27,981 nucleotides of DNA, from IMG/VR virus record IMGVR_UViG_3300010430_000383, positions 1-27,981 of that record; one strand, 5' to 3'. Position numbers and translations under genes: made by a program. The notes beneath the pieces are model-generated. The model saw only the letters and a list, made by a program, of their open reading frames with translations, did no database searches and was not told where the DNA came from. How positions within the stretch are numbered: the first letter of the stretch is position 1; each line of letters opens with the position of its first letter. Below, one piece after another: positions 1,376 to 24,060 of the stretch. Source of the stretch: a virus.

Positions 1376-1386
1376 ACCGCTTTTAT

Positions 1387-1447: not shown

Positions 1448-1459
1448 AAGGTGCGCACA

Positions 1460-1684
1460 ATGTACGTAAAATTGAAACACAGCTGGGCCGGTAATAGACC
1501 TGGCGACGAAGTCGAGGCACCCGACTATCTGGCGGAACGATGGATTGCCGAAGGCTCGGCGGTTGCAATCGACAAGCCGAAGGCTGAACCCAAACCAGAA
1601 CCGGAATTCGTGGACCCTGAAAAGGAAGAAGCGAAGAAGCCCGCACGCAAGAAACGGCAGGCGCGCAATGATAAGTCTGAGTAG
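1460..1684 (+). CDS. Small charged head protein of unknown function
   Basis: A 74-residue protein starting MYVKLKHSWAGNRPGDEVEA and ending in a highly charged Lys/Glu/Pro tail (KAEPKPEPEF, then EEAKKPARKKRQ). ATG 1460 is preferred over GTG 1451, because the AAGG at 1448-1451 sits at normal distance from 1460 and would lie inside the other start. Its place between capsid and head-tail connector is where many siphophages carry a short accessory head protein. The N-terminal pattern resembles small phage proteins of this position, but no named domain is claimed. The 3' end overlaps the next gene by 17 bases. Confidence 0.7.
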   Translation: MYVKLKHSWAGNRPGDEVEAPDYLAERWIAEGSAVAIDKPKAEPKPEPEFVDPEKEEAKKPARKKRQARNDKSE

Positions 1685-2228: not shown

Positions 2229-2529
2229 ATACCCCGCGACCGTTTATCAGCCAGCCGTGGAAAAGGTACGGACCACACGCGAACGCAAGGCGCTGTTTAA
2301 CGTGTGGGTATCGATGGAACCGACGTCGGCTGGCGAGTCCACGCGGGGCGAAGGCATTGAGACCTCTAACGCGTTCACGCTTCGTTGCCCTTGGTTCCCC
2401 TGCGACTGGAATACCGCATGGTATATCGAGCTGTGGGACGGGCGCAGGCTGAGCATTGACGGCGTAATAAACAAAGACGAAACAAACCACGAATGGCAGA
2501 TAACAGCCACACAAGAGGCTAGAACGTAA
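2209..2529 (+). CDS. Head-tail joining (adaptor/stopper) protein
   Basis: A 106-residue protein with the pattern of the phage head-tail joining family (Phage_H_T_join): an early strand, then ALFNVWVSMEPTSAGES, a central turn, ELWDGRRLSIDGVINKDET, and a C-terminal WQITATQEA strand. This group forms the stopper or adaptor ring between head and tail. It begins inside the end of the connector gene (20-base overlap), the expected order for neck genes. The stop TAA overlaps the next ATG by one base. Confidence 0.82.
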   Translation: MNSGKYKYPATVYQPAVEKVRTTRERKALFNVWVSMEPTSAGESTRGEGIETSNAFTLRCPWFPCDWNTAWYIELWDGRRLSIDGVINKDETNHEWQITATQEART

Positions 2530-2828
2530 TGGCAAAAGTTCACAATACAGTTTCACAGGCTTACACCGTCAGCAGTACGGCGGTCAGCCTACAGACAATC
2601 GGCTTCTCCGCGGCACAGGTTGCCGGCGGACTTACGTTGACGGTAACGGGTGATACAGTCATTCGGTACTTGGTCGACCAGACACCAACCGCCACATTCG
2701 GGCACATTATCCCAGCAGGCGAAACGGTGGAATTCATTCGTGGCGACTTTGCTGATATGGAATTTATCCGTGGCAGCGGCACCGACAGCGTAGCTACATT
2801 CACGCTCGAGACACGCGTAGACGTATAA
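2529..2828 (+). CDS. Small neck-region protein, unknown
   Basis: A 99-residue, Thr/Val-rich, probably all-beta protein (TVSQAYTVSSTAVSLQTIGF, TLTVTGDTVIRYLVDQTP, PAGETVEFIRGDFADMEFIR). It has no Cys, membrane segment or recognised domain. It is translationally coupled to the preceding stopper gene by a one-base overlap and lies just before the large LamG protein. The beta-rich composition fits a small decoration or structural virion protein, but this rests on context only. Confidence 0.68.
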   Translation: MAKVHNTVSQAYTVSSTAVSLQTIGFSAAQVAGGLTLTVTGDTVIRYLVDQTPTATFGHIIPAGETVEFIRGDFADMEFIRGSGTDSVATFTLETRVDV

Positions 2829-2837
2829 GGGGCTTCG

Positions 2838-5800: not shown

Positions 5801-6554
5801 AGTTGTGGAGACTGACGGAAAAGTCAGAATAACCGTTAGCGAAAACGGCACTACAGTCGCAAATGCCTCAACGGCAACATCTGTAATCACAGCTGGTCAA
5901 TTGCATCACGTATCAATGACGTTTGACGCTGGTACGGTTGTGTATGAAATCGACGGTAATACTGTCGGGACAGTATGGAGCGATACAGCTAGAACATTCG
6001 TTTATGGTTCAACCGCCGACTTCGAAGTCGGTGCATACGATGGCGGTTCCTTTCCGTTCGCCGGTACGCAGTCACAACTGCTAGTCCACAAAGACCCGAC
6101 CGTCGTCTGGGACGCTGCAACCAAAGCTGCCATTCGAGCAGCGGGCAAAACGTCCGATGTTGCGGCCATCGTAAGCGACTTAGGCGGCGCGGCTTGGTAC
6201 TTCCCAGACGCCAAGACAGAAACGCTGCAAAATCTGCCATCCCTTACGGTCAACGGAGCGCCAGAGCAGTGGGTTGTTCCAGCTGGCACGGGCTTGCCAG
6301 CAATCAGCTACGGACCTGGCTTGCTTCCGCCCAACTGCTCGCTGGACCTGTACTGCAACGAGGACGACGCACCGTTTAGCCAAGGGCTGGCGGCACTACT
6401 GACGGACGGCGACTACGCATACGACGATGGCGGGCCGGAAGGTGACAGCCTATTCAGGAAAACAGACAACAGCAACGGCGAAGAGCTGGCGGTTATTAAG
6501 CCGGCAGCCACAGGTGCAGAACTGACCATCCTTGAGGCGTGGGACAGTGACTAA
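2838..6554 (+). CDS. Large virion protein with five LamG-like domains
   Basis: A 1238-residue protein preceded by a good AAGGGG ribosome site. After a basic N-terminal ~40 residues (RRRTKNKNRRRGSS), at least five concanavalin A/LamG-like modules can be seen. They start near residues 66 (TLNGTSEYINAG), 290 (CSDGVDDYLDTQL), 535 (GDTWARADMG), 735 (TLNGSTEYLTLP) and 930 (WFDGANDYFSRA). Each has the usual order: 'N/DG..DY' strand, 'SVTV'-type strand, 'A.LNG..V' turn and 'IG' strand. LamG domains generally bind glycans or proteins, so a role in host or surface adhesion from the particle is likely. The position between neck genes, rather than among tail fibres, is unusual. The last ~150 residues have no repeat. 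The next gene overlaps its end by 8 bases. Confidence 0.85.
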   Translation: MRRRTKNKNRRRGSSGAGTPAQLLGDQLQLRVEPGRISPAARTVYGVERYTDPLQSGTPRQLLPKYAVTLNGTSEYINAGSIGANRNRTITAWVKVNSLPGTNARFFSNTSNSPTANSGLDCYVTSTGEVGLFLDGVATVSSAGVITAGTWYLLSVTVASDGTVSAAINASEVVAGAVADVTSGNDLLLGRYGLSSTSFLNGAFDDIRVYDGVLSQADLLAIAGLSTGSQSGVAVSLVPSRHYRCEDPVTSVTLRNSGSLGSAADATITTAAIATVRGTASPVYSFANSVGGTQAWCSDGVDDYLDTQLTLDGATAFTVWRRARYLSTNAYDLDGFINSLGSAIQFGRNTGDNEIYFAYTNESGGQVYQPAVTIPDGEIHTLSVSAEVGGNYSAWLNGTELVDTAVGSPFTAISNSETFWIGENSNAGSPHNSHTEYYEYLIADRVLTDDELTWLETGGQSGTAIDFENDASILLYTDFSQQTATQIVNQANRNLPILKASGSAAGELTMVPRGESDTTTDVDQADYSYRTAIYLPGDTWARADMGSALIPATGDFDISVDFNLHATDSADTFQTLLSQFKTSSTDGRVLWRINKASLYLDFLIVNASPGNAQLQSGNNAITVGKWHTARVARVGNVFTMWLDGVQVATQTVAVTVDTTSNTFIGQGEEQLTTHDEFNGLISNIDFNGTQYLTTPNETISGSTLTNASYVNVVRGKPGTLQHTGIAPRDMPLSSPCVTLNGSTEYLTLPVDLSGASSWKFSAWLKTSDAGNFVILEARDADNDGYLISYSSGTLFVSSDTTDNGVAISSLVDGSWHLLEVEFTGSFSIVTLDGTIIDTTALSAVASLARTDVVVGRRVDGDVATHFTGNVGLIEFTVDGVSSNYPLTEGAGDVAHDVSGNGNDGTITGTLANIWTNQTNVPGSGTLVEDGYSVGTWFDGANDYFSRANLLGGSAKLCVSLWMRVDSLAATRVVIGEYVPTGNQRGFLLVVETDGKVRITVSENGTTVANASTATSVITAGQLHHVSMTFDAGTVVYEIDGNTVGTVWSDTARTFVYGSTADFEVGAYDGGSFPFAGTQSQLLVHKDPTVVWDAATKAAIRAAGKTSDVAAIVSDLGGAAWYFPDAKTETLQNLPSLTVNGAPEQWVVPAGTGLPAISYGPGLLPPNCSLDLYCNEDDAPFSQGLAALLTDGDYAYDDGGPEGDSLFRKTDNSNGEELAVIKPAATGAELTILEAWDSD

Positions 6555-7017
6555 AGTAAAAGTCGAACTGGAAGGTATTAAAGAATTTGAAAAGCTAGTT
6601 GGACAGGTTGCACCCAAGGAAGCCAAAAAAGCTATAAGGAAATCACTCCGCGAGGCTGGAAAGTACGTTAAGGCTGTGGCTAAACGCAACGCTCCGGTAG
6701 ATACGGGCTTGCTGCGACGCAAGATAAAGGTAAGGGCGGCAACGGCACGCAATGGCGTCAAAATGAAACGTGGCGTCGCTGGCATTATTGTCGTCAGCGG
6801 GCTTCCAGGAAAGGGTGGCAATACGGGCGACGCTTACTATGGCTATTTCCTGGAGCTGGGCACCAAGGAACGGCAAAAGGCATCCGGCCAAAAAACGGGC
6901 CGCATTAAAAAGGGCGAGCACAAATTCCTGGCTCCATCGCTTTACAGAAACAAGGCCAAAGTTCGAAAGTTCTTTATGCGTAACTTGAGAAACAGAATCC
7001 GGTCGATGGCGAAATGA
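6547..7017 (+). CDS. HK97 gp10-like neck/tail-completion protein
   Basis: A 156-residue basic protein. It reads TKVKVELEGIKEFEKLVGQV, then a helix of paired Lys, then RNAPVDTGLLRRKIKV, followed by YYGYFLELGTKERQ and a basic C-terminal tail. The 'APVDTGxLRxSI ... YxxxxExGT' layout is the signature of the HK97-gp10-like family, found at the head-tail joint next to tail terminators. GTG 6547 is preferred because GAGG lies 9 bases upstream; TTG 6532 is also in frame and would add five residues. The stop overlaps the next start as ATGA. Confidence 0.86.
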   Translation: MTKVKVELEGIKEFEKLVGQVAPKEAKKAIRKSLREAGKYVKAVAKRNAPVDTGLLRRKIKVRAATARNGVKMKRGVAGIIVVSGLPGKGGNTGDAYYGYFLELGTKERQKASGQKTGRIKKGEHKFLAPSLYRNKAKVRKFFMRNLRNRIRSMAK

Positions 7018-7940
7018 TACTTCTAGCGCTTTACGATTACATCACCAGCAGCCAGCGGACAAACGATGGCGTGCGTAATCGTGCGCGGCGTATAATTCGC
7101 CACTATGTCGGTGACAATATCTACCTGAGCGTTAGACCACAGGAACAGAAAGACCATCTAATTGTACTGAGCGCCGCCGGCGGCGACCCGATTTTGCGGC
7201 TGGACGACTTAGCACAGAACGCGATTGCAGAGGTTGACGTTGAGCTATACAGCACGAACAAAGACCGCTACGAAATAGCCGAAGCAATAAAGCAGCTGTT
7301 TCATCAGTACCGGGGCACGCTAAACGGCGACTACAGCACGCAAGGCATTTTTCTGCAGTCGGAACCATACGAAGACCCGATAGAGCCACTGGGTGCTGGG
7401 CAAGACTGGCTTTACCGCACAACGGTCACGCTAAGCGTCGAGCACAACCAGACGCTGCCGGCTTTTGGCCTTGCTGAGTTTATTTCTACAGTTGAGCAAG
7501 ACAATCCAGGCGACCCAACAGACGATGGCATTCTGCTGGTTGATTCGCTTTCGTGGACGCCAGACGACGACGCCTTCCCGGTTAGTGACGGTGTGGCAAT
7601 CAATGGCCACGCTTGGCGTGTCGGCGAGAATGACAACATCAGCGAACAGATTTTCGCCAGTGCGAAAGCTGCTGCAACAACGTACAGCATCTACGTTAGG
7701 TACAGACACACGGGCGTAAACCCTGGCGACGCAACGCTGGCTGTAGATGGCGAAGCGTTTGCGATAACGTCAAACGGCAGCAGTGATACATACGATGGCG
7801 CATCGACGGTGCGCAACACGGACGGCTGGTCGCTAGTGGGCACAAAAGCCCTGACGGCTGGCGTAAAAGAATTAATTATTGACGGGCCGACAACGTCATC
7901 TGATGCAGTAATCGTTGACCGTGTCGCCTTGGTGCCATAG
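7014..7940 (+). CDS. Tail terminator (gp17/DUF3168-like) with extra C-terminal domain
   Basis: A 308-residue protein. Residues ~1-150 look like the DUF3168/gp17 tail-completion fold: an N-terminal helix LLALYDYITSS, HLIVLSAAGGDP, the strand IAEVDVELYSTNKDRYEIAE, a helix, and LYRTTVTLSVEHNQ. These normally end near 130-150 residues. Here another ~150 residues follow a DNPGDPTDDG linker. They read as a beta-sandwich (YSIYVRYRHTGVNPGDATLA, then WSLVGTKALTAGVKELII and VIVDRVALVP), the layout of galactose-binding or CBM-like domains. The N-terminal part caps the tail; the C-terminal part may decorate the neck or bind sugar. It follows gp10 with an ATGA overlap. Confidence 0.72.
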   Translation: MILLALYDYITSSQRTNDGVRNRARRIIRHYVGDNIYLSVRPQEQKDHLIVLSAAGGDPILRLDDLAQNAIAEVDVELYSTNKDRYEIAEAIKQLFHQYRGTLNGDYSTQGIFLQSEPYEDPIEPLGAGQDWLYRTTVTLSVEHNQTLPAFGLAEFISTVEQDNPGDPTDDGILLVDSLSWTPDDDAFPVSDGVAINGHAWRVGENDNISEQIFASAKAAATTYSIYVRYRHTGVNPGDATLAVDGEAFAITSNGSSDTYDGASTVRNTDGWSLVGTKALTAGVKELIIDGPTTSSDAVIVDRVALVP

Positions 7941-7951
7941 GAGTACATGTA

Positions 7952-8365
7952 ATGGCAAGTTTGGGAAATGGCTCTTATGTCCAAGTGGACGGGACCAAAA
8001 TTGCACGCGTAATTAGCGTGGCCGGCATTTCACGCAGCGTCGCAGTTGTGGACGTTGAGGAACTGGAGCCACAGGCTGCAAACCCACTGAGGCGAAAGCT
8101 ATTTAGTGACCGTGTAGAGCATGACGGATTCGAGGTTACGCTGCACGGCGACTTCGGCTCTGGCCCCGATGCTGCAGCGTGGATTCAAACACTGGGTGGC
8201 GCAAGTGTGGCAATCGCAGTCTACTCGCCGGACTCCAATAAATACTGGTCCTCTACAGGCGTAGTGCAGGCAAGCAATAGCGGCGACTTAAATATAGATG
8301 AAGCACATGTGCAGACGTTCACTATACACCTAGACGGGAATAACAACATTGTCACATACCAATAG
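7952..8365 (+). CDS. Major tail (tube) protein candidate
   Basis: A 137-residue protein with an AGGAG ribosome site. It reads ASLGNGSYVQVDGTKIARVI, then VAVVDVEELEPQAANPLRRK, EHDGFEVTLHGDFGSGPDAA and VQTFTIHLDGNNNIVTYQ. The early 'V-D-V' strand, the long loop with two basic residues and the final long strands match small siphophage tail-tube subunits. Its place, directly after the terminator and before the chaperone pair, is where the tube gene always sits. No domain search was possible, so the call rests on position and fold pattern. Confidence 0.72.
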   Translation: MASLGNGSYVQVDGTKIARVISVAGISRSVAVVDVEELEPQAANPLRRKLFSDRVEHDGFEVTLHGDFGSGPDAAAWIQTLGGASVAIAVYSPDSNKYWSSTGVVQASNSGDLNIDEAHVQTFTIHLDGNNNIVTYQ

Positions 8366-8549
8366 TCCTGAAGTGAAAGTCGTGGACGGCAGCGCTATAT
8401 TCATCGACGGCAAGTTAGTTGCCGGCGTCGGTGGCGGCTGCTTGCAGATGTTTGAGCTGCTTTCTGAAGCGACTATCGCGGAAATCCGAAAATTGGTAGA
8501 ATTCGATAGTGTGAATCCACCGATTCCGATGGAGCCTAAAGTTGTTTGA
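8349..8549 (+). CDS. Small protein between tail tube and chaperone genes
   Basis: A 66-residue ORF starting with TTG inside the end of the tail-tube gene; a GTG at 8373 is an alternative start. A weak GGGAA lies upstream of TTG. The product has a short beta part (VDGSAIFIDGKLVAGVGG) followed by a helix (CLQMFELLSEATIAEIRKLV). It ends 8 bases inside the next gene, and its tail contains the GGAG that drives that gene. The function is not recognised; small genes of this kind occur next to tail chaperones. Confidence 0.5.
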   Translation: MSHTNSPEVKVVDGSAIFIDGKLVAGVGGGCLQMFELLSEATIAEIRKLVEFDSVNPPIPMEPKVV

Positions 8550-8907
8550 ACATCAATTGCGTATTCGGTCTGTTGACGTACCAGGCATTGACGAAGAATT
8601 CTACATCAAGGAAATGTCTGCACAGGCGGCTTGGTCTGTAGAATTTGAGGCGAAGAAAGGCGAACAGCCGGAGTTCGCTTTGGCCGTTATCGCCAGCCGC
8701 TGCAACGCTGACGGCCATCTAGTCTACCCGTGCCGATTCCTTGTCAATGGAATGGAGTACGACAAGGAAATTGCGGACAAAATACGGGAAATGCCGAGCG
8801 GCCCAATGGGAGTTATTACAGCGGCTATACGTGCCTTGCAGTGGCTAGAGCCAGACGCACCGAACCGCAGCGAACGCACGGAACGGGTGGCGGCAAAAAA
8901 CGAATAA
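8542..8907 (+). CDS. Tail assembly chaperone, G-type
   Basis: A 121-residue protein starting at TTG 8542, with GGAG at 8531-8534 at good distance. It lies between tail tube and tape measure, exactly where lambda gpG stands. The body reads FEHQLRIRSVDVPGIDEEFY, MSAQAAWSVEFEA, and a helical C-terminus MPSGPMGVITAAIRALQWLE. These chaperones bind the tape measure and recruit tube subunits and are not kept in the finished tail. Six bases before the stop is the slippery heptamer A AAA AAC, and a shifted product reads on into the downstream frame (separate entry). Confidence 0.78.
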   Translation: MFEHQLRIRSVDVPGIDEEFYIKEMSAQAAWSVEFEAKKGEQPEFALAVIASRCNADGHLVYPCRFLVNGMEYDKEIADKIREMPSGPMGVITAAIRALQWLEPDAPNRSERTERVAAKNE

Positions 8908-9050
8908 AGCGGGATGCCCTTTACCGGGCCGCCCGCATCGTCTGCCACCATTACCGCTGGGACTACGTCGAGTACATGGAACGCGTTAGCCCGAACCGCA
9001 TATTAGAAGACATTACGTTTATGGAATGGTTCAATAATGGCGGAAAATAA
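8542..9050 (+). CDS. Tail assembly chaperone GT fusion by -1 frameshift
   Basis: Slippage at 8895-8901 moves the ribosome from the G frame into the -1 frame. That frame then reads RIKRDALYRAARIVCHHYRW and on to a stop at 9048, giving a product of about 169 residues. The T part has the family feel of short tail chaperone extensions (a helix with YVEYMERVSP, ending MEWFNNGGK) and has no start codon of its own with a ribosome site. It overlaps the tape measure start by 14 bases. Lambda-type phages need a fixed G to GT ratio, which such signals set. Confidence 0.76.
8895..8936 (+). promoter_or_regulatory. Programmed -1 frameshift signal
   Basis: In the G frame the codons read gcA AAA AAC, the canonical slippery heptamer (8895-8901). 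After a 7-base spacer a stem-loop follows: GCGGG 8909-8913 pairs with CCCGC 8932-8936, and GCCC 8916-8919 pairs with GGGC 8926-8929, around a TTTACC loop. Heptamer, spacing and structure are all in the range known to promote -1 frameshifting. Confidence 0.85.
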
Positions 9051-10122
9051 CGTAGTAGCGTCAATGTCTGTTTTGGTGAAAGCCGACAATAGACAATTCA
9101 AACGCAAGATGAAGGAGACGAAGTTTGAGGTTCGCTCCTTCGGTGACGTTTCTAAGGACATGCAAAGAAGCGTTGTACAGTCATTCTCGCGAATGTCTGG
9201 CGTTAGCGTGCGTTCGCTTTCCGCCATTGCGACCGGGGCTTCACTTGCCGGAGCTGCTGTGGTTGGGTTGGGCGCTGGAATGTTCACGCTTACCAATCGC
9301 ATATCTACTGGCGTGGATGAACTAACGAAAACGGCTGAGTCGCTTGGTATGACGACGCAGTCATTGGAAAAGTGGCGGCTTGCCTCCGCTAAGGCTGGCG
9401 TCGAAAATAACACACTGACGGACGGCATCCGAACATTCAGGCAACGCGTCAGTGAGTTAGGGCAGGGCACGGGCGAGGCTACGCGCTATTTTCAACTGCT
9501 TGGTTTAACCTACGAGCAGCTATCAAGTATGGACCCAGGCGACGCACTGGAAGTGACAGCGAAGCGGATAGAACAGCTTGGGACCACGTATGATAAGCAG
9601 GCTTTCTTTCAAAGGCTAACCGGCGAAACGGCAGGATTTCAGTTTGGCCGGCTGCTCAAGGATAACGCGGCGGCTGTGGTGGAAGCCGAGGCTACGATTG
9701 CAAAGTCTGGCGGACCAATTACTGAAAAGCAGATTGCAAACGCAGTCAAGTTTAAGGACTCAATGTCAGACCTTGCCTTTGCCGCAAACAAGCTTGGCAT
9801 TGCTTTGGTCGATGTGTTTGGTGACGATATACAAAACTCTGTCGAGCAGCTGCGCGAATTCCTGGTTGAAGGTGCCGAGTTCTTCAAGTCAGCGAATGAA
9901 TCATTCGATGTAATGAGTGCATTCACTGGCGGAATATCTTCGTTAGGTAATTTCCGGCAGCACGGTTTCAGTTCGCTATTAATGCCTGGGGCACTTTCGC
10001 CCATTCCAGCACTACACGATGCCACGGTGCGTGCAAACGAGCCAACACAAATGCGGGGCAACCGCGCAACAAATGACCCAACAGCGCAAGCCGTGTATGC
10101 AACAAGGGGGCACTTTCACTAA
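9037..10122 (+). CDS. Tape measure protein (short)
   Basis: A 361-residue protein directly after the G/GT chaperones, where the tape measure always lies. The N-terminus is charged (ADNRQFKRKMKETKFEVRSF). A hydrophobic glycine/alanine stretch follows (ATGASLAGAAVVGLGAGMF), then long helices with the tape-measure pattern KTAESLGMTTQSLEKWRLAS and ELGQGTGEATRYFQLLGLTY. At roughly 1.5 angstrom per residue the length would set a tail of only about 50-55 nm. Most siphophage tape measures are longer than 600 residues, so this is a short-tail design, or part of the length function lies elsewhere. It overlaps the T frame and, by one base, the next gene. Confidence 0.8.
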   Translation: MAENNVVASMSVLVKADNRQFKRKMKETKFEVRSFGDVSKDMQRSVVQSFSRMSGVSVRSLSAIATGASLAGAAVVGLGAGMFTLTNRISTGVDELTKTAESLGMTTQSLEKWRLASAKAGVENNTLTDGIRTFRQRVSELGQGTGEATRYFQLLGLTYEQLSSMDPGDALEVTAKRIEQLGTTYDKQAFFQRLTGETAGFQFGRLLKDNAAAVVEAEATIAKSGGPITEKQIANAVKFKDSMSDLAFAANKLGIALVDVFGDDIQNSVEQLREFLVEGAEFFKSANESFDVMSAFTGGISSLGNFRQHGFSSLLMPGALSPIPALHDATVRANEPTQMRGNRATNDPTAQAVYATRGHFH

Positions 10123-11201
10123 TGCCGAGACTAGCAGGAACTATACTGGCTTCAGGGCCAAACCTGAGTACGCTTTCCTTAGGCTCAACGCTTGGTCTGC
10201 TTGAGTCACCCGCAAGCGACATCAGCAGCATTACCGAAGGCCGAATCGTTCAGGTGTGGCAGCTGATACTTTCCAGCAACGCACCAGCGATTGACGGCCA
10301 TACGGCTATCAACCTGGCCTGGCTTAAGGGGATGCCACAGCGAGGCACAGCGTATGTAAACAGCTACACTGGGGCAAGCAATGGCGTTAGCACGACGCTG
10401 AGCGGTGCCAGCTACCACCCTTCATTGTTTGCCTACGAATTCCGTGCCTACACGCCACGCCCGATTGACGGCAAGCGTGTATGGGAAATTGAGGTTATTT
10501 ACCGCGAGCCAATTTGGGGCAACGACGAATACCCAGGCACGGCTAGGCAACCGCCAGCCCTGCGGAATTGCGAATATCGATTCGATTTCGTAGACATCCA
10601 GTTCGACGAAGCGGAAGCGTATAAAATTAGCAGCTCGGGAGCGAAGGCGTCCGACTTCAATTCCAAGCAGACCGTGACGCACACGAACGGCCAGCCTCTG
10701 GACCGCCCGCTGAAAGTCACGCGCAAGTCACCGGTGGTTGACATTTGGTTCAACACATACGACCAGACGTTATCGACTTTCATAATGCTATACTTTGACA
10801 ACAAGTTAAACAGCGACGAGTTTAACCTGTTTGGCTACCCTGTGGGGAAATACGAAGCGAGAGTATTGTTGGCCGAGCAAGAGCAAGCTGGATACTATAG
10901 CGGAAGCCCTTATTATCGCGTCCATGTACAGATGATGCTGGCCCCCGACCCTAGCTATCACTGGGTGCAAGTGCCAAGCGTTGGGAATATCAACAGCCTT
11001 GGCCTGGCCATTACAAGCGAAGATGGGCACTTACGGGGGAATGCTGGCTTGCAGGAAAACGGCGAACCGGCAGACAGCAGCAACCCACCAGCCGTGCTGA
11101 AGTGGTCCACGCTGGGCACGCGTCCGTTCAATTCAATTGTGGCCGGCGAGGGGCCGCTGGCTTCTGGCTGGCTTGCAAACCTAAGAGGAAAACTAGGCTA
11201 A
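10122..11201 (+). CDS. Tail-tip protein, unknown (distal-tail position)
   Basis: A 359-residue protein following the tape measure, with one-base overlaps on both sides. It has mixed beta-rich segments (EFRAYTPRPIDGKRVWEIEV, and later PLKVTRKSPVVDIWFNTYDQ) and no signal peptide or membrane segment. In siphophages this position holds the distal tail protein or hub, so a baseplate role is likely. I do not recognise the family from sequence. Confidence 0.7.
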   Translation: MPRLAGTILASGPNLSTLSLGSTLGLLESPASDISSITEGRIVQVWQLILSSNAPAIDGHTAINLAWLKGMPQRGTAYVNSYTGASNGVSTTLSGASYHPSLFAYEFRAYTPRPIDGKRVWEIEVIYREPIWGNDEYPGTARQPPALRNCEYRFDFVDIQFDEAEAYKISSSGAKASDFNSKQTVTHTNGQPLDRPLKVTRKSPVVDIWFNTYDQTLSTFIMLYFDNKLNSDEFNLFGYPVGKYEARVLLAEQEQAGYYSGSPYYRVHVQMMLAPDPSYHWVQVPSVGNINSLGLAITSEDGHLRGNAGLQENGEPADSSNPPAVLKWSTLGTRPFNSIVAGEGPLASGWLANLRGKLG

Positions 11202-11557
11202 TGGCAACGCTAAATTTCACGCACTCAAATAACTACAACGCATCTGGTGCAACCTTTAGTTACACCGAGGAAACGGGGGCCGGCACGCCGGGCGTTATCG
11301 TCGTCAGCACTGGCGTCACAACCGTTGACCTGTCGCAGTTAACAAGCCCAGAGATAGCGGTTATCACGAACCACGACGAAGCCAAGGTGGTTGTGTTCGG
11401 CGTGGAGTCTGGCGGCTCTATTGTCGAAGTCGCAACAATACCGGCTGGTGCGTCGCTTCCGCAAAAACTATCGCCAAACGCAACCTATATGCTCAAGCTG
11501 GCGGCGGGTGAAACGGGTGACGCGCGCGTATCATTCGAGGGCTTTGGCAGTGCGTAA
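11201..11557 (+). CDS. Small beta-rich tail protein, unknown
   Basis: A 118-residue protein starting at ATG 11201, which shares its A with the stop of the preceding gene; the open frame extends further upstream but only through that gene. The sequence is beta-rich (SGATFSYTEETGAGTPGVIV, then VAVITNHDEA-like strands) and ends VSFEGFGSA. It resembles neither a chaperone nor a peptidase. It lies among tail-tip genes and overlaps the next start by 8 bases, so a minor tail role is inferred from context. Confidence 0.65.
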   Translation: MATLNFTHSNNYNASGATFSYTEETGAGTPGVIVVSTGVTTVDLSQLTSPEIAVITNHDEAKVVVFGVESGGSIVEVATIPAGASLPQKLSPNATYMLKLAAGETGDARVSFEGFGSA

Positions 11558-12827
11558 CCCAAACCGGCCCGCTATTCCAAACGCAAGGGACGCCGCCAAA
11601 ATACGGCGCGTGGTCCGACCTGCGATACAGAATACGGTGCCGGAACCGCACCTTCCCATAACTTCGCCAGGGTATCTCGCTACAGCTGACGCTGACATTG
11701 TCGCCAATGGCTCTGGCCCGTTCACGGTGCAGAACGGAAACCCTAACCAAAAAGAGGGTAGCCAGCTTGGCTTGACTGCTTACACGCTTTCCGCGTTACA
11801 GCAGGGCGATACGGCGTTTCTAACTTGGGTTTCGGCTGCCGGCTCTGGCGGCGGTTATTGGCTTGCCGTTGGTGGCGAGGCATCGCTCTGCTTTTCCCCG
11901 TGTGACCTGTTTGGGTTGCTTGAGACCCTAAGTCTCAATAGCGACGCCCGCCAAATACTATCAAGGATGCAGCTAGATTGCGGATGCGCCCAGCAGGAGA
12001 CTGTCAGCTGTGCGGAATGCAAAGACGGGGCAATGCCGGCGAATGTGACGGTCCTAATATCTGGCGTTGAGGTTAACCCATACGACCCAGTTGGGGTTCC
12101 CGATATCTTTGTCGACCCGGACGGGCACGCAGAGGACCTGACGCTCTACGGCCCGTCAATCAAGGAGCAATTCAACCAAGAGCATCAGCTCGAAATGCCT
12201 GGCTGTGCCAACTTTAAGACGCTAGAACTTGAGCTTGCAGATAGAAATGCCGTCGTGCAATACGTCGCCAGCCTTAGCATCAATTTTGGGGAAAATGACG
12301 CTGGCACCTTTAAAACTTGGAACGCTGTCTTGAGCCTTTCAAGGTTTTTCGGCGGGCAGGTATTCGAGTATTACTTTAGCGGGGAGGACCTAGGGGCGGA
12401 CTGCTTCGGCGTCTATGCTATCGACTTCTCGCACCTGACGGCACAGTTCAACTCAGGAAGCTGGACAGATGAAGAAAATCCATATCTCGACCTGCGTAAC
12501 CTACAGATAATCATCAGCCCGACAGTGCAAACGGTTGCTGCTGCTGCTGCTGTTCGCACGCCGCTGACGGGCTATCTAAACGGTACCTACTTCTACAATC
12601 CAGGCGTAGCGGTTGATAGCGTCACGTTTCCGCTGCCTGAAAGCCCCAACGATAACGACTTCGTGAAAGTTGTTTTTGGCGGTACAATAGGCTATGGCGA
12701 AACGGTGGTAAATAACCTTTCATTCAGTGGCGGGACCGTGTTTGGCGAGTTCCCGGCAGCCGTCGCATCTGGAAGCACAATAACACTCCAATACAGCGCC
12801 GACTTTAGCAGGTGGTATGTGGTATGA
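11550..12827 (+). CDS. Tail-tip/minor tail protein, unknown, Cys-rich centre
   Basis: A 425-residue protein. GTG 11550 is chosen because GAGG lies 9 bases upstream; the longer frame upstream overlaps the previous gene entirely. The N-terminus is basic and proline-rich (NPNRPAIPNARDAAKIRRVV). A central cysteine cluster (DCGCAQQE, CAECKDG) could bind metal or form disulfides. Two later parts read as beta-sandwich strands (TGYLNGTYFYNPGVAVDSV, ASGSTITLQYSADFSRWYVV). The function is not recognised. It is joined to the next gene by ATGA. Confidence 0.66.
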   Translation: MRNPNRPAIPNARDAAKIRRVVRPAIQNTVPEPHLPITSPGYLATADADIVANGSGPFTVQNGNPNQKEGSQLGLTAYTLSALQQGDTAFLTWVSAAGSGGGYWLAVGGEASLCFSPCDLFGLLETLSLNSDARQILSRMQLDCGCAQQETVSCAECKDGAMPANVTVLISGVEVNPYDPVGVPDIFVDPDGHAEDLTLYGPSIKEQFNQEHQLEMPGCANFKTLELELADRNAVVQYVASLSINFGENDAGTFKTWNAVLSLSRFFGGQVFEYYFSGEDLGADCFGVYAIDFSHLTAQFNSGSWTDEENPYLDLRNLQIIISPTVQTVAAAAAVRTPLTGYLNGTYFYNPGVAVDSVTFPLPESPNDNDFVKVVFGGTIGYGETVVNNLSFSGGTVFGEFPAAVASGSTITLQYSADFSRWYVV

Positions 12828-13618
12828 CGTTTTGGCCCCGTTCTAACGACCCCGGAATCGAGCACGCATTGGACGTTATCTACAGCGATTACGGCGTGCG
12901 TGCGTCGGTTGTGCAGAAGTCCAAAGACCTGCTTAAGTTTGGCCGCAATCCCAGCTGCGGCACGTCCTATGAGACCGTGTGGAACCAGGGCGGAACAGAA
13001 ACGCTAATCACAACAAACAGCATCGACACGTTATCTAGTTCAAACGCTGGCGACATGCAGGCTGTTGTTGTCGAGGGCCATACGCTGGCAAGTGATAACT
13101 TTACATTCGTTGTGCAATCCGCAACGCTCAATGGCCAGAATAAAGTTGTTCTTTCTACGCCACTGGCTCGAGTCACGCGCGTCTATAACAATGATTCGAC
13201 GGACTTCGCTGGCGACATCTATTGCTATGAGGATGATACAATCGTTTCTGGCGTCCCGCAGACTACCGCCAAGATTCACGCCAAGGCAGTCGCCGGCGAC
13301 AACTCCACGCAGAAGTGTGCAACGACCCTGTCGTATCGTGACTATGGCATTATTACCGCAATGGAGGTTGGCGTATTTGAGAAGTCATCAGCGTCAGCCG
13401 ACTTCGCTTTGCAGATAAGGCGCTACGGCAAAACATTCCGCACGGCCTCGCGCGCAGCTTGCAGCAACCAATCTGGCGCTCTAGAGATTAGGTTTTATCC
13501 TTATATCATCGTGCCCGCCAACGCTGACGTGCGAATTGTGGCCGCAGCAAGCGGGGCGAATGTCGACGTTGCAGCAGAATTCCAGACGATATTGGCGATT
13601 GACACAGCACTAGCTTAA
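12824..13618 (+). CDS. Virion-associated protein, unknown
   Basis: A 264-residue protein. ATG 12824 is preferred: AGGTGG lies 8 bases upstream, and it gives the ATGA overlap with the gene before, whereas GTG 12812 has no site. The order of motifs (FGRNPSCGTSYETVWNQGG, then VVVEGHTLASDN and TLNGQNKVVLSTPLARVTRV) recalls a structural protein family I remember from phages of marine bacteria, with 'E-T-V/I-W-D/N-x-G-G' near residue 50. That memory is not backed by a search. A late tail or fibre-linked role is inferred from context. Confidence 0.62.
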   Translation: MTFWPRSNDPGIEHALDVIYSDYGVRASVVQKSKDLLKFGRNPSCGTSYETVWNQGGTETLITTNSIDTLSSSNAGDMQAVVVEGHTLASDNFTFVVQSATLNGQNKVVLSTPLARVTRVYNNDSTDFAGDIYCYEDDTIVSGVPQTTAKIHAKAVAGDNSTQKCATTLSYRDYGIITAMEVGVFEKSSASADFALQIRRYGKTFRTASRAACSNQSGALEIRFYPYIIVPANADVRIVAAASGANVDVAAEFQTILAIDTALA

Positions 13619-13628
13619 AGGGCCACGC

Positions 13629-14297
13629 ATGGGCAATACGCTGGTAGTCGGAGACTTGCACGCACCATTCTGCAAAGGGGGCTATCTTGAGCACTGCGTT
13701 AGGGCTTGGAACGAGTACGGCTGCGATAGCGTTGTTTTCATCGGTGACGTGCTGGACAATCATTACTCAAGCTACCACGAGACAGACCCAGACGGCTATT
13801 CAGCCGGCGAAGAACTGGACCGCGCCATTGACCAGCTCGGCGACTGGGTTGCAACCTTCCCAGATGCCGTCATCACAATCGGCAACCACGACCGCATCGT
13901 CGGGCGTAAATGCTTCAGTTCGGGCGTATCGAAACGATGGGTTCGCACGTACCAGGACGTACTGGACGCGCCCGGCTGGAACTTTGTCGAGGAATACTTT
14001 GACGAATCGACGGGCGTACTGTATCAGCACGGCGAGGGCGGGACGGCTCGAACGGTTGCGGCACGCGAGCAGGTATCCACGGTTCAGGGCCACAGGCACA
14101 GCGAGGCTTACGCCTGGCACTTGGCCAACCGACGCCAGCGGCTTTGGGGCATGCAGGTCGGCTGTGGTCTGGACAGACGCAGCTACGCAGCAGCCTATGC
14201 GAGAGTCGGCCCCAAGCCGGCTATTGCGTGCGCGGTTGTCGCAGACAATGGGCGGTTACCGATAGTGTCAATGATGGAGCTTGGCAATGATTTCTGA
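13629..14297 (+). CDS. Calcineurin-type metallophosphoesterase
   Basis: A 222-residue protein with an AAAGGG ribosome site. All the metal-binding motifs of the family are visible: GDLH at 8-11, GD at 39-40 (FIGDVLDN), GNHD at 85-88, a His in YQHGE (134) and GHRH at 154-157. The fold binds two metals and cleaves phosphomono- or diesters; the substrate cannot be read. It is compact, with no signal peptide. It lies at the end of the late operon, away from replication genes, which is odd for a nucleic-acid enzyme. It may act on host nucleotides, RNA or protein phosphate late in infection. Confidence 0.85.
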   Translation: MGNTLVVGDLHAPFCKGGYLEHCVRAWNEYGCDSVVFIGDVLDNHYSSYHETDPDGYSAGEELDRAIDQLGDWVATFPDAVITIGNHDRIVGRKCFSSGVSKRWVRTYQDVLDAPGWNFVEEYFDESTGVLYQHGEGGTARTVAAREQVSTVQGHRHSEAYAWHLANRRQRLWGMQVGCGLDRRSYAAAYARVGPKPAIACAVVADNGRLPIVSMMELGNDF

Positions 14298-14556
14298 AGC
14301 AAAGCCGCTATCGGTCGACGTGCTTGGGTTTGATATCCCAATAAAGTACGTGACGTACGCAGACCTGCAATGTTGGGGCGTGGCTGTCTATGAACCTGGC
14401 TGCGTAGAGTTACGCATAGCGTCAGAGGCCACAGGACGCCGCCTAGCGTCCACTATCTTTCACGAGCGGCTAGAACTAGCCTTAATGATTGTGGGCTTTA
14501 GCGGCGACGAGGCGGCCAAGGAACAAGTCATCTGCGTCGCTGAACTTCTGCTTTAG
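14287..14556 (+). CDS. Minimal zincin-like phage protein with HERLE motif
   Basis: An 89-residue protein. ATG 14287 has GGAG seven bases before it. It follows the layout of small phage zincin-like proteins: an N-terminal 'V-x-G-x-x-I-x-Y-V' strand (VLGFDIPIKYVTYADL), a hydrophobic strand, then a helix with HE (TIFHERLELALMIVG) and a final helix with Glu (EQVICVAELLL). In active members the motif is HExxH; here it is H-E-R-L-E, so the second zinc ligand is changed to Glu. It overlaps the phosphoesterase gene by 11 bases, and its TAG stop is the first three bases of repeat element copy A. Confidence 0.62.
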   Translation: MISEAKPLSVDVLGFDIPIKYVTYADLQCWGVAVYEPGCVELRIASEATGRRLASTIFHERLELALMIVGFSGDEAAKEQVICVAELLL

Positions 14557-14575
14557 CTCAGTAGGCTAGAGCGCC
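14554..14575. repeat. D-arm-like boundary element, copy A
   Basis: On the + strand it reads TAGCTCAGTAGGCTAGAGCG then CC, close to the D-arm of a tRNA. It lies exactly at the meeting point of the two convergent operons. The + gene stop (TAG 14554-14556) and the - gene stop (TGA 14560-14558) are both inside it. On the - strand all three frames meet a stop in or just after the element. Confidence 0.85.
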
Positions 14576-14905
14576 TTGTATAAGTTCAATTCGCGTATAG
14601 CCGATACGCTTCGCCCACAGTTTGTCGCCGACCATGATTTGGCTGGCGTTGCCCCATATTTCAGTACCAACCAAGCCGCCCATGTCGCCCTCCGGCGGGT
14701 TAACAACAGTCAGCACCGATTGCCCTGCAACGGCTCCCGGCTCCCGTGCTTCAAGGTGCAATCGCAAACACTTTTTTCCAGTGGAGGTGCCGTGACAGGA
14801 AGGGCAGTCGTCCCATCCGTTGTCGTCTTTCCCTGTGTTGTCGCAAAAATCACAGTCGCCGGGAAAAATTTGCGTTACCGCCCTTATTCGTGCGTCAATA
14901 CTCAC
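14558..14905 (-). CDS. Small protein with DnaJ-like zinc finger
   Basis: A 115-residue protein starting at GTG 14905, with AAGGA about 9 bases upstream. C18-x2-C21 followed by NTG, then C34-x2-C37 with HGT (CDFCDNTGKDDNGWDDCPSC), is the DnaJ central zinc-finger pattern, here one pair of CxxC-G motifs. Such fingers bind one zinc and usually contact protein. The rest is beta-rich, and the end is GALAY, encoded by repeat element copy A. It is the last gene of the leftward operon. Its start lies just past element copy B. Confidence 0.72.
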   Translation of the reverse strand: MSIDARIRAVTQIFPGDCDFCDNTGKDDNGWDDCPSCHGTSTGKKCLRLHLEAREPGAVAGQSVLTVVNPPEGDMGGLVGTEIWGNASQIMVGDKLWAKRIGYTRIELIQGALAY

Positions 14906-14925
14906 TGGTTTGTCCTTAAAGGTTT

Positions 14926-14947
14926 TAGCTCAGTTGGCTAGAGCGTC
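14926..14947. repeat. D-arm-like boundary element, copy B
   Basis: On the + strand this copy is TAGCTCAGTTGGCTAGAGCG then TC, the best match to the consensus. It encodes the C-terminal DALAN and the stop of the minus gene ending at 14930. The next minus gene starts 20 bases further on. Confidence 0.87.
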
Positions 14948-15607
14948 TGCTAGTTCATCGTGCCCTATCACCGTCTCGACTGGTCGCCGGTCCCCGATTG
15001 CAGCTACCTCACGGATGATGTCGGGGCATTTTCGCCAGATGGTTTCCGCATCGGCGCCGGCATAGGCGGCATCGGCGCCGGCATAGGCGGCATAGGCGGC
15101 GGCACAGGCGGCATGGGCGGCGGCATTGGCGGCATTCCCGGCATAGGCGGCATTGGCGGCATTCCCGGCATCGGCGGCATAGGAGGCGGCATTGGCGGCA
15201 TTCCCGGCATCGGCGGCAGTCGGTTGGTCTACCACTGGTTCTAGCCCTCGCAATTTCGCTGCCTGCTCATGCAGCCCTTTGGCATCGAGTGCGATTGGGG
15301 CAACCTCCCGTACCGCCCAATCGGAAAATCGATACGCTCGCTGACGTTCCACTGATGGGTCATCGGTTCGCGTGCCAAGGATTTCCCAAGCCAGCGGACC
15401 GTAGAGCTCGCCGAGAAGTGCTTCAGGCATCGCGTCGTTGGTTGTGATGATGAAGCTTCGAATCACTAGGCAGACACAACTGTTGTAGTCTCCGTCCGCA
15501 CCTCTGCCGCAGAGCATGTTTGAGGCGGTCATCAAGCATGCAGTGTCGACGCCATTGCCTGCTCCGTGAGTTAGGTGGATGATTTTCCCGGTTTCTGGGT
15601 TAAACAT
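14930..15607 (-). CDS. Unknown phage protein with Ala-rich repeat domain
   Basis: A 225-residue protein; ATG 15607 has AAAGGAAAACC before it. Residues 1-125 are a folded part (CLMTASNMLCGRGADGDYNS, then ALLGELYGPLAWEILGTRTD and FSDWAVREVAPIALDAKGLH) that I recall from other phage proteins with alanine-rich tails but cannot name. Residues ~130-185 are an alanine repeat (units such as AANAAYAG, AAYAAYAGAD), probably a helical solenoid or spacer. It is encoded by a 6/9/15-base tandem repeat at about 15050-15225. The end (IIREVAAIGDRRP then DALAN) returns to normal sequence. The two Cys in the N-terminal part may be structural. Confidence 0.72.
   Translation of the reverse strand: MFNPETGKIIHLTHGAGNGVDTACLMTASNMLCGRGADGDYNSCVCLVIRSFIITTNDAMPEALLGELYGPLAWEILGTRTDDPSVERQRAYRFSDWAVREVAPIALDAKGLHEQAAKLRGLEPVVDQPTAADAGNAANAASYAADAGNAANAAYAGNAANAAAHAACAAAYAAYAGADAAYAGADAETIWRKCPDIIREVAAIGDRRPVETVIGHDELADALAN
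15050..15225 (-). repeat. GCC/GGC tandem repeat coding for Ala-rich segment
   Basis: The + strand shows many copies of GGCGGCAT, GGCATAGGC and GGCATTCCC in tandem, coding AAN/AAY/AGN units on the - strand. The antisense frame is also open (Gly-rich) but has no ribosome site and is a shadow. Such arrays can change length by slippage. Confidence 0.85.
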
Positions 15608-15634
15608 GGTTTTCCTTTCTGTTGGTTAGTTGAC

Positions 15635-15656
15635 TAGCTCAGTTGGCTAGGGCGTC
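15635..15656. repeat. D-arm-like boundary element, copy C
   Basis: On the + strand it reads TAGCTCAGTTGGCTAGGGCG then TC. The single change (A to G) keeps a G-U pair in a + strand D-stem but would break it in the - strand RNA. It encodes DALAN and the stop of the minus gene ending at 15639. A degenerate half copy (GTTGGTTAG) lies just left at 15621-15629. Confidence 0.86.
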
Positions 15657-15887
15657 TTGTGCGATTTTGGCGCAGTACCTATGTCCGCTTGCGTGCTCGT
15701 ATTCGCAGTATTTTGACTCAGCGATTTGGCGCAAAGCGGATTCCAGCTTTTCAATGCGTTCGCGATACCGTGCGAACCCATCAATCAGTGCATACATCTC
15801 GACCATGTCAAGCGTGTATTCGTCCTGCTGGTTTTTCAACTCAAGCCGCAGGATTTCAATTACGTTTTTGTGTCGTTCTTCACTCAT
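15639..15887 (-). CDS. Small coiled-coil phage protein
   Basis: An 82-residue protein, mostly helical with heptad-like Leu/Ile spacing (NVIEILRLELKNQQDEY, RERIEKLESALRQIAESK). It ends with a small His/Cys part (CEYEHASGHRYCAKIAQDAL). Short phage ORFs often end with 'IEELEAAL-RxIA...C...IAxxAL', so the end is family-like rather than random; the function is unknown. The start at 15887 has only a weak site (GAGCTGATAACC), which lies inside element copy D, so its translation may depend on the gene before. Confidence 0.68.
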   Translation of the reverse strand: MSEERHKNVIEILRLELKNQQDEYTLDMVEMYALIDGFARYRERIEKLESALRQIAESKYCEYEHASGHRYCAKIAQDALAN

Positions 15888-15893
15888 GGTTAT

Positions 15894-15915
15894 CAGCTCA
15901 GTTGGCTAGAGCGTC
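15894..15915. repeat. D-arm-like boundary element, copy D
   Basis: On the + strand it reads CAGCTCAGTTGGCTAGAGCG then TC. Here the upstream minus gene has already stopped at 15931, 15 bases before the element. The sequence is therefore kept without coding for anything, which argues that the element itself is selected or spreads. The next gene starts 6 bases beyond. Confidence 0.86.
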
Positions 15916-15930
15916 GGGACAAGTTGATAG

Positions 15931-16299
15931 TTATGTTGCTAACTCTGTATCAACCTCACGAATCCCGTAGCGGCTCAATTCAACGATTCCTAAATTAGTC
16001 GATCCGTCCTTCCACCACACGTCGAAGTGGTCATGGAACGCATAGCACGTCCCTTCCTTTTCGCCGTCTGTTACAGTGAATTTACGGCACGAGGACTGTT
16101 TAAGCCTCTTTAGTGCATCGCGGAACTTGCCACCACTCGCGGAACCCTTTATCCCAACGCATTCACACGCCATCCACCAAAGGTTGGTCATTTCAACCGC
16201 TTCGCTTTCGCGGAACCTTCGCTCTTCGTCGAGCCGCTCTAATTCATCAAGGTTTCTCAGCCAACGCCAAAGCCAGTATTTATTTTCGTCGTGGTTCAT
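15931..16299 (-). CDS. Unknown small acidic/aromatic protein
   Basis: A 122-residue protein with a Trp-rich, charged N-terminal helix (NKYWLWRWLRNLDELERLDE, ERRFRESEAVEMTNLWWM). A basic stretch (GKFRDALKRLKQSSCRKF) follows, then a beta part (GTCYAFHDHFDVWWKDGSTN). No domain is recognised. The start region has two ATGs (16307 and 16299) after AGGAAACC; the first opens only a three-codon ORF that overlaps the real start, perhaps a coupling device. Confidence 0.68.
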   Translation of the reverse strand: MNHDENKYWLWRWLRNLDELERLDEERRFRESEAVEMTNLWWMACECVGIKGSASGGKFRDALKRLKQSSCRKFTVTDGEKEGTCYAFHDHFDVWWKDGSTNLGIVELSRYGIREVDTELAT

Positions 16300-16362
16300 G
16301 GTTTCATGGTTTCCTATTTGGTGGCTGTTTCCCGTTTGAGAAATTGTTGTGTTTCAGGCAAC

Positions 16363-16377
16363 TAGCCCAGTTGGCTA
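16363..16377. repeat. D-arm-like boundary element, copy E (diverged)
   Basis: On the + strand it reads TAGCCCAGTTGGCTA, then diverges (CTCGCC). The change T to C at position 5 makes the stem TAGCC/GGCTA perfect where other copies have a G-U pair. It supplies the TAG stop of the minus gene ending at 16375. Only two minus frames are closed in this copy. Confidence 0.7.
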
Positions 16378-16575
16378 CTCGCCGATTCCCAAATCCGCTT
16401 GGCCTTCCGCGCGCTGCCGCTGTGCTTTAGTTAACCGCACGGACGTGTCATTGTATCCGATGAACTTGCCGCACAGCGAGCACGTAATGCGTTCGAAGTG
16501 CGTGCGGTAGTAGTCCTTAATTCGCGCCCGTCGCCAGTGCTGCGGGTTGTTGTGTGGCGTTGCCGGGCAAGTCAT
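16375..16575 (-). CDS. Small Cys/His protein, possible zinc ribbon
   Basis: A 66-residue basic protein: TCPATPHNNPQHWRRARIKD, then ITCSLCGKFIGYNDTS and VRLTKAQRQRAEGQ. There is one clear CxxC, with a Cys/His-rich N-terminus that could complete a zinc site. It starts in an ATGA overlap with the upstream gene and ends in repeat element copy E. The function is unknown. Confidence 0.66.
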   Translation of the reverse strand: MTCPATPHNNPQHWRRARIKDYYRTHFERITCSLCGKFIGYNDTSVRLTKAQRQRAEGQADLGIGE

Positions 16576-22822: not shown

Positions 22823-23020
22823 TTATCCGTCACCGATGCCGTAGCCGTAGCCCCTGCCGTTGCCGTAGCCGTCGCCGTAGCCGTCGCCGTCGCCGTAGCC
22901 GTCGCCGTCGCCGTAGCCGTAGCCGTTGCCGCTGCCGTTGCCGTTTCCGTAACCGCTGCCGTAGCCGTAGCCATAACCGCAGCCGTCGCCGTAGCCGTAG
23001 CCGTAGCCGTCGTTATTCAT
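22823..23020 (-). CDS. Gly-X repeat protein, array 1
   Basis: A 65-residue protein beginning MNND and then strictly alternating glycine with Y, D, N, S, C, R or I: (GX)n. Its ATG lies in the tail of the DUF6948-like gene (8-base overlap), as in array 2. The DNA is a hexamer repeat of GGC plus TAC/GAC/AAC type codons. It ends in a segment (GYGNGRGYGYGIGDG) that is identical inside array 2, so array 1 looks like a shortened copy. A flexible or beta-roll-like secreted or sticky peptide is possible; no fold is assignable. Codon pattern and overlap support translation. Confidence 0.62.
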   Translation of the reverse strand: MNNDGYGYGYGDGCGYGYGYGSGYGNGNGSGNGYGYGDGDGYGDGDGYGDGYGNGRGYGYGIGDG

Positions 23021-23387
23021 TCTCCCACTCCCGCATTTCTTGAATCGACTTTCGTCCCGCATCCGTGCAATAAATAACCTCGCAGGCGTCCAACAAATCA
23101 ATCTCTGGCACTTCGTTCGCGTATTTGCACGAACTTGCGTCTGTCGTCCCTTCCGTCGCTAATCCGCTCAGCGTCTTACCGTGCCATTTCCAAAGCCTCC
23201 GCGACCGGAGCAGCTTGACCTCGCGTCCTTCGCGATGTTTCACCCATCCAGCATGCACGCCGGCGTCTCTGCACCGAATTATTGCGTATCGCAACCCGTC
23301 GCAGTCTGTCTCGCTTAGCGACTGTACGCTATCTGCTGGGATGTACTTTACTCCGTTTACTTCGATGGTTTTTGCGTCAATTTTCAT
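23013..23387 (-). CDS. DUF6948-like phage protein, copy 1
   Basis: A 124-residue protein, MKIDAKTIEVNGVKYIPADS at the start. The central block RYAIIRCRDAGVHAGWVKHR, RRLWKWHG, LATEGTTDASSCKYANEVPE and CEVIYCTDAGRKSIQ follows the layout I remember for DUF6948 phage proteins ('YVIVRT-x-AGVFAGYL ... RRLWYW ... CKFPCEVDEI ... EIIPCT'). The function of that family is unknown. The copy at 23641-24015 is nearly identical (about nine in ten residues). The ~50 bases before each ATG are also conserved though they do not code for the same protein. Confidence 0.75.
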   Translation of the reverse strand: MKIDAKTIEVNGVKYIPADSVQSLSETDCDGLRYAIIRCRDAGVHAGWVKHREGREVKLLRSRRLWKWHGKTLSGLATEGTTDASSCKYANEVPEIDLLDACEVIYCTDAGRKSIQEMREWENE

Positions 23388-23438: not shown

Positions 23439-23648
23439 TCAGCCGCTGCCGTTGCCGTTGCCGTAGCCGCTGCCGCTGCCGTTGCCGTAGCCGCTGCCGT
23501 TGCCGTAGCCGCTGCCGTCGCCGTAGCCGGTGCCGTCACCGATGCCGTAGCCGTAGCCCCTGCCGTTGCCGTAGCCGTCGCCGTCGCCGTAGCCGTAGCC
23601 GTTGCCGTCGCCGTCGCCGTAGCCGTAGCCGCTGCCGTCGTTATTCAT
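23439..23648 (-). CDS. Gly-X repeat protein, array 2
   Basis: A 69-residue MNND(GX)n protein. Its ATG at 23648 overlaps the end of DUF6948-like copy 2 by 8 bases (ATGAATAA), the same joint as array 1. X is mostly Y, D, N or S, with one R, I and T. The shared internal segment with array 1 shows that the two arose by duplication of the whole two-gene module and then changed length. Antisense frames are open too but lack start sites. Confidence 0.62.
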   Translation of the reverse strand: MNNDGSGYGYGDGDGNGYGYGDGDGYGNGRGYGYGIGDGTGYGDGSGYGNGSGYGNGSGSGYGNGNGSG

Positions 23649-24015
23649 TGACCCACTCCCGCATTGCCTGAATCGAAAGACGACCAGCGTCGGTGCAATA
23701 AATTACCTCGCAGGCGTCTAACAGGTCAATCTCTGGCACTTCGTTCGCGTACTTGCACGAACTTGCGTCTGTCGTGCCCTCTGTCGCCAATCCGCTCAGC
23801 GTCTTGCCGTGCCATTGCCAAAGCCTCCGCGACCCAATCAGCTTAACTTCGCGCCCTTCACGATGTTTCACCCAACCCGCATGTACGCCTGCGTCTCTGC
23901 ATCGGATGATTGCATATCGCAACCCGTCGCAGTCTGCCTCGCTTAGCGACTGCACGCTGTCTGCTGGGATGTACTTTACGCCGTTAACTTCGATGGTTTT
24001 TGCGTCAATCTTCAT
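23641..24015 (-). CDS. DUF6948-like phage protein, copy 2
   Basis: A 124-residue paralog of the 23013-23387 gene. The main differences from copy 1 are ETDC/EADC, LLRSRRLWKW/LIGSRRLWQW and RKSIQEMREWENE/RLSIQAMREWVNE; the rest is almost the same, with many silent changes. That points to a duplication old enough for synonymous drift but with the protein kept. Upstream in-frame ATG 24060 would add 15 residues, but copy 1 has no matching start, so ATG 24015 is chosen. The ribosome site is weak (GAAAGC), which may mean control through the conserved leader. Confidence 0.75.
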   Translation of the reverse strand: MKIDAKTIEVNGVKYIPADSVQSLSEADCDGLRYAIIRCRDAGVHAGWVKHREGREVKLIGSRRLWQWHGKTLSGLATEGTTDASSCKYANEVPEIDLLDACEVIYCTDAGRLSIQAMREWVNE

Positions 24016-24060
24016 TTTTTGTAGCTTTCGTTTAAAAAGAGTGTAAATTAAAGGTTCCAT

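Follow-up and report, generated by a model that had tools for sequence, protein, structure and literature searches.

A tRNA D-arm-like element bounds chains of small gene cassettes in two nearly unrelated phages and may mark the joints of their exchange

Introduction

The gain and swap of small accessory genes by phages are mostly explained by random illegitimate recombination and selection. A phage locus in which copies of one short tRNA-like sequence separate successive small genes raises the question of whether such genes are also joined at a dedicated boundary. If so, the boundary would supply a concrete mechanism for building small-gene regions, and the recruitment of tRNA fragments as recombination joints would become a testable idea.

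The locus lies in the whole IMG/VR record IMGVR_UViG_3300010430_000383 (27,981 bases, hereafter the window), part of a tailed-phage genome whose genes include a capsid protein and a metallophosphoesterase. Leftward genes form a block on its right side and encode, among others, a NinG-like protein, a 5'-3' exonuclease and a Mom-like protein. The window also carries a DUF6948 gene in two copies, at 23013-23387 and 23641-24060 (-), with proteins 94% identical and with adjoining repeats coding for (GYGDG)n; a third relative lies in the G001 contig described below (L138:3446-3769).

Results

Element copies and genes in the window

Using the query TAGCTCAGTTGGCTAGAGCG on the + strand, we recovered four element copies (A to D) with 0-1 mismatches, and a repeat search picked up a diverged fifth copy (E), all at the positions given by a first-pass annotation of this DNA (Table 1). 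The maximum number of query matches in 100 dinucleotide shuffles of the window was 0, which rules out a chance repeat. As annotated, the copies lie at the ends of leftward small ORFs: A, B, C and E supply the stop codons, and copy D comes after the stop codon of its ORF. On the - strand, each of copies A to D shuts every reading frame in a span of about 17 nt, and copy E shuts two, again in agreement with the annotation; of the 21-nt stretches of the window's - strand, just 0.24% show such three-frame closure. Copies A, B and C are in frame with the ORF ends ..ALAY*, ..DALAN* and ..DALAN*, respectively. A protein C-terminal tag (..DALAN*) was rejected as the identity of the element, the reading frame at the element differing between copies. 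This variation, together with the position of copy D outside any ORF, upholds the earlier argument that coding does not explain the repeat.

Table 1. Features of the array in the window (positions in the 27,981-base record)
Feature	Position	Strand	Remarks
Element copy A, last array boundary	14554..14573	-	TGA of ORF 14558-14905 (-), TAG of ORF 14281-14556 (+)
Cassette ORF A-B, 115 aa	14558..14905	-	GTG start; possible zinc ribbon (weak)
Element copy B	14926..14945	-	exact query match
Cassette ORF B-C, 225 aa	14930..15607	-	Ala-rich middle; sole cassette gene in common with G001 (L026:10786-11487)
Shared cassette unit	14926..15662	-	DNA similarity to G001 spans element B through element C and ends there
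Element copy C	15635..15654	-
Cassette ORF C-D, 82 aa	15639..15887	-	start 22 nt after first base of element D
Element copy D	15894..15913	-	3' of the stop of ORF 15931-16299, beyond that ORF
Cassette ORF D-E, 122 aa	15931..16299	-
Element copy E, diverged, first array boundary	16363..16378	-	TAG of ORF 16375-16575
66-aa ORF ahead of array	16375..16575	-	ends in copy E; overlaps start of upstream phage gene 16572-17360

The first-pass annotation had missed that the TAG inside copy A is also the stop of the convergent + strand ORF (91 aa); looking for relatives of this ORF among the fetched loci, to judge whether the array truncates it, gave none. Searches for relatives of the outer cassette genes gave none for ORF D-E and, for ORF A-B, none besides a sister contig (G002, below). 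ARAGORN and Rfam found no tRNA gene or Rfam match in the window, so that a tRNA gene or known RNA was rejected as the identity of the element there, and ARAGORN found no complete tRNA cloverleaf in G001.

A second array in another phage

The element alone retrieves tRNA genes, and we therefore searched IMG/VR viral contigs with the element followed by AGG and ATG at suitable spacing, yielding 13 loci. Twelve were tRNA genes or tRNA-like sequences; the remaining one (L005) lay in an 89.7-kb, 41% GC phage contig, IMGVR_UViG_3300010430_000013 (G001). There, eight element copies within 2.3 kb (L026:10504-12771) bound seven small ORFs (72, 233, 85, 32, 67, 68 and 123 aa) that point the same way and have the stop-element-start layout of the window. 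The unit first proposed from the window, one ORF plus one boundary, thus recurs in G001.

Outside tRNA-like sequence, two further search patterns matched only G001 and G002, a 19.5-kb sister contig of the window from another dataset; window bases 1-15218 and G002 are 99.99% identical, so that this contig adds no exchange data. Besides the sister contig, relatives of the metallophosphoesterase gene adjacent to the array were found at 79 loci (49-59% identity); relatives of the DUF6948 gene were found in nine further records. None of these had an array. Neither the Ala-rich gene nor the element + ATG pattern turned up in two scans of GTDB species genomes, and searches of known phages and plasmids for the cassette genes were likewise without a match. 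Compared with known phages, array DNA gave sole matches of 26-36 nt, at the element, falling on tRNA-Pro in several annotated records.

Similarity between the arrays stops at the elements

The window and G001 are nearly unrelated, having in common one cassette gene and, outside the arrays, a DUF6948 gene and a short end of a tail protein. The shared cassette encodes an Ala-rich protein (225 aa in the window, 233 aa in G001) that is 68-71% identical between the two, at a DNA identity of 74% for the gene. The DNA match begins at element B, extends 8 nt past element C and ends there; in the 192-200 nt flanking the shared unit on each side, the alignment was no better than that of shuffled sequence. 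Among the twelve ORFs compared between the arrays there was no related pair besides the shared cassette, which makes one cassette in common out of four in the window and out of seven in G001, with unrelated neighbours. The first-pass annotation had proposed looking for gain, loss or swap of ORFs with breakpoints inside the element and had named a fixed gene order among relatives as evidence to the contrary. Its interpretation is supported: the shared unit is bounded by elements on both sides, and the ORFs of the G001 array are otherwise almost wholly different.

The Ala-rich middle of the shared protein (window 15050-15225 (-); L026:11110-11372 (+)) is built of imperfect 9/12-base units. Its length and its residues differ from one phage to the other, both ends of the protein being strongly conserved. 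An AlphaFold model of the protein, built from two sequences, was discarded (mean pLDDT 42).

Composition of the arrays

The G001 array has a GC content of 53%, against about 40% on either side. A two-change-point fit put the edges, within 2 log units, at 10485-10569 and 12704-12844, around the first (10504) and last (12757) elements, and the best fit was unchanged when the Ala-rich stretch was masked. The array thus looks imported, and the coincidence of its GC breakpoints with the outer elements supports the earlier cassette interpretation. In tetranucleotides, the G001 array was unlike all 500 chunks of the same length from G001; the window array was likewise compositionally odd, with 0 of 300 chunks equally distant. 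When the shared gene was left out, the trinucleotide distance between the two arrays was 0.185, comparable to that of random pairs of window chunks (0.187 +- 0.039), and each array lay farther from its own phage (0.270 and 0.224). This composition suggests that the two arrays drew on one cassette pool, foreign to either phage, with the proviso that small accessory genes may deviate for other reasons.

The conserved core of the element

The coding-strand sequence of the element is (GACGCT)CTAGCCAACTGAGCTA. A 15-nt stretch (TAGCCAACTGAGCTA), preceded by a weaker GACGCTC, shows no or almost no variation among the 13 copies and is far better kept than the shared gene. It is the reverse complement of a tRNA D-arm, at about positions 8-21, the weaker GACGCTC then corresponding to 22-28; all 13 copies are antisense to the tRNA on the coding strand. 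In our judgement this likeness is too long for coincidence. All four pairs of the D-stem are intact in just 5 of 13 copies and broken in the other 8, and we rejected the D-arm hairpin as the conserved feature. The tRNA-like core of the first-pass annotation holds as a likeness of sequence, then, and not as a preserved stem. Eleven of the 13 copies retain a TAGC...GCTA pair on the two sides of a 7-nt centre.

The core usually gives stop codons in three frames, and the upstream ORF uses the TGA frame or the TAG frame in some copies and stops ahead of the element in others, which indicates a constraint on nucleic acid rather than on protein. In copies wD, g1, g4 and g6 the start codon lies exactly 22 nt past the first base of the 15-mer CTAGCCAACTGAGCT; among the copies overall, the distance from element to start varies. 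The core contains no Shine-Dalgarno sequence (AGGAG), and such purine-rich sites as occur are downstream of the element. In neither array did promoter-like sites exceed chance, and the elements showed no terminator-like stem, so that promoter or terminator modules were rejected as well.

Discussion

A proposed route of exchange

We consider it probable (about 0.6) that the array consists of mobile small phage gene cassettes joined at a tRNA-derived boundary, and we propose a recombination route for it. Each unit would comprise one ORF with its leader and one boundary copy, and units would pass between unrelated phages with the joints in the boundary, as is seen in a single unit and at the two outer edges of a single array. 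Judging from the sequence, the three-frame stops that the boundary usually carries would close any joined ORF, and the start codon shortly downstream would leave the next ORF translatable. Joining would most likely take place by short-homology recombination between boundary copies (15-22 nt), carried out by phage recombination functions; the main alternative to such joining would be a site-specific recombinase acting in trans. We favour the homology-based route, alongside which the NinG-like protein of the window may be cited, and in either case the element itself would presumably be the recombination site.

Exchange is favoured by the occurrence of arrays of the same layout in two nearly unrelated phages, by the ends of the shared unit at elements and the GC change-points around the outer elements of G001, by the likeness of the arrays in trinucleotides at a distance from their own phages, and by a core near-invariant in 13 copies whose reading frame varies. 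Against it stand the small number of cases (two independent arrays with one shared cassette), the near-identical sister contig, which shows no exchange in the part covered, and the failure to find a tyrosine or serine recombinase in the window, G001 or G002, contigs that may be partial. The PF00589 profile matched none of these three possibly partial contigs and 14 of 14 controls. A block that moved once and carries regulatory repeats would produce much of the same evidence, which also counts against exchange.

A bolder form of the proposal, a phage-borne integron-like cassette system whose site is a tRNA D-arm fragment with a three-frame stop and whose accessory-gene pool crosses unrelated phages, is a tentative idea that we think doubtful. 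In either form of the proposal, a dedicated boundary, built from DNA that hosts have to retain in their tRNA genes and acting as a stop in any frame, would, if real, provide a simple signature for cassette pools in other phages.

Comparison with known systems

Literature searches gave no described match to this cassette array, in line with the novelty claimed by the first-pass annotation. PeSL mobile regulatory cassettes, reportedly described by Arbiol 2010 and Comeau 2014, offer the closest functional parallel. As cited in PMC4503421, they are short repeated intergenic sequences of T4-like phages said to mediate the shuffling of small genes. To the extent that this citation describes them, both systems have short repeats between small genes, and in both the genes between repeats differ from phage to phage; a PeSL, however, consists of a promoter and a stem-loop, whereas neither promoter nor terminator was found here, the core is D-arm-like with three-frame stops, and the phages are nearly unrelated. 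On this comparison the arrays would work most like a PeSL-type shuffling boundary.

The closest anatomical parallel is the Start-Associated Sequences of Cluster K mycobacteriophages, 13-bp repeats that are confined to one phage cluster and whose Shine-Dalgarno core (AGGAG) stands 3-7 bp ahead of the start codon (PMC3203893). They too are short repeats in one orientation at junctions of non-structural genes, before genes of different families, and may contain the upstream stop codon; unlike them, the present element lacks a Shine-Dalgarno core, stands at varying distances from the start and occurs in unrelated phages. Halovirus HF2 also has repeated sequences between its genes, 29-58 bp long and carrying promoters, but its tRNA-like gene is a separate attP candidate, apart from the repeats (PMC8707807).

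Integron cassettes, to which the first-pass annotation had compared the locus, match in layout only. One ORF and one short site per unit, in one direction and in an array, are features of both; no integrase was found in the possibly partial contigs, and the site is about 15-22 nt long, without paired attC sites. On inspection for the attC motif pair of R'' (RYYYAAC) with R' (GTTRRRY), the + strand GTTGGCT deviates from the latter, and no paired second site is seen. An integron was rejected on these grounds. Since defining features of PeSLs, of Start-Associated Sequences and of integrons were looked for in the array and not found, we filed it under none of them.

Alternative explanations

The element might instead be a regulatory or translational signal (stop and re-initiation, a repressor site or an RNA-protein site) in an array that moved as a block, with no joint at the element. 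Its uniform orientation and position at stop-start junctions, the exact 22-nt spacing to the start codon in four copies and the similar placement of the Cluster K Start-Associated Sequences at gene junctions (PMC3203893) agree with such a role, yet it would leave unexplained, on its own, why the similarity of the shared unit ends at both elements and why the outer GC steps lie around elements. With neither a Shine-Dalgarno sequence in the core nor a promoter or terminator at the elements, we hold this explanation to be rather unlikely.

Another alternative is an integron-like process, in which a site-specific recombinase encoded in trans, by the host or by an unsequenced part of the phage, would insert circular cassettes at a core site that may be TAGC-N7-GCTA. 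It would fit the single-orientation units of one ORF and one site, the joints at the site, the symmetry kept in 11 of 13 copies, and the common use of tRNA genes as integration targets (PMC9897764). The site is short, however, no attC-like site was seen, and no tyrosine or serine recombinase was found in the window, G001 or G002. Known tRNA integration sites, to our knowledge, rarely use the D-arm, which further weighs against this process, and we regard it as quite unlikely.

It is very improbable that the element, as RNA, modulates translation of the following gene by pairing with tRNAs of the host or with tRNA halves: the mRNA strand is complementary to the D-arm, with 13 of 13 copies antisense on the coding strand, but several substitutions would break the pairing (for example C-to-A at core position 13, g2 and g8), and a shared orientation is in any case to be expected from the cassette layout. 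A chance repeat, coding repeat or assembly artefact, for which we found no supporting point, can practically be dismissed given the shuffles, the varying reading frame and the presence of the element in the independent contig G001 and in the sister contig from another dataset.

Neighbouring genes in G001 and other tRNA-like loci

Directly before the G001 array lies a GDP-mannose 4,6-dehydratase gene (L026:8098-10311 (+)) whose Pfam match falls in two stretches; a mid-gene insertion apparently splits it and may be an intein. The protein encoded at L026:16530-17510 (+) starts with MKIKFETLEKKELFAID, which we take to resemble the LEPRxLL-type start of planctomycete surface proteins and which gives a hint as to the host of G001. 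Another locus, L010, carries a T-arm followed by a D-arm (7716-7802 and 7969-8031 (+)), the permuted order for a tRNA, and similar T-arm/D-arm sequence occurs in L007, L008 and L013. Matches to the Rfam YrlA (Y RNA-like) family scored 33.6 and 36.1 bits, below its gathering score of 69, and sequences of this type are possibly phage-borne Y RNA-like RNAs.
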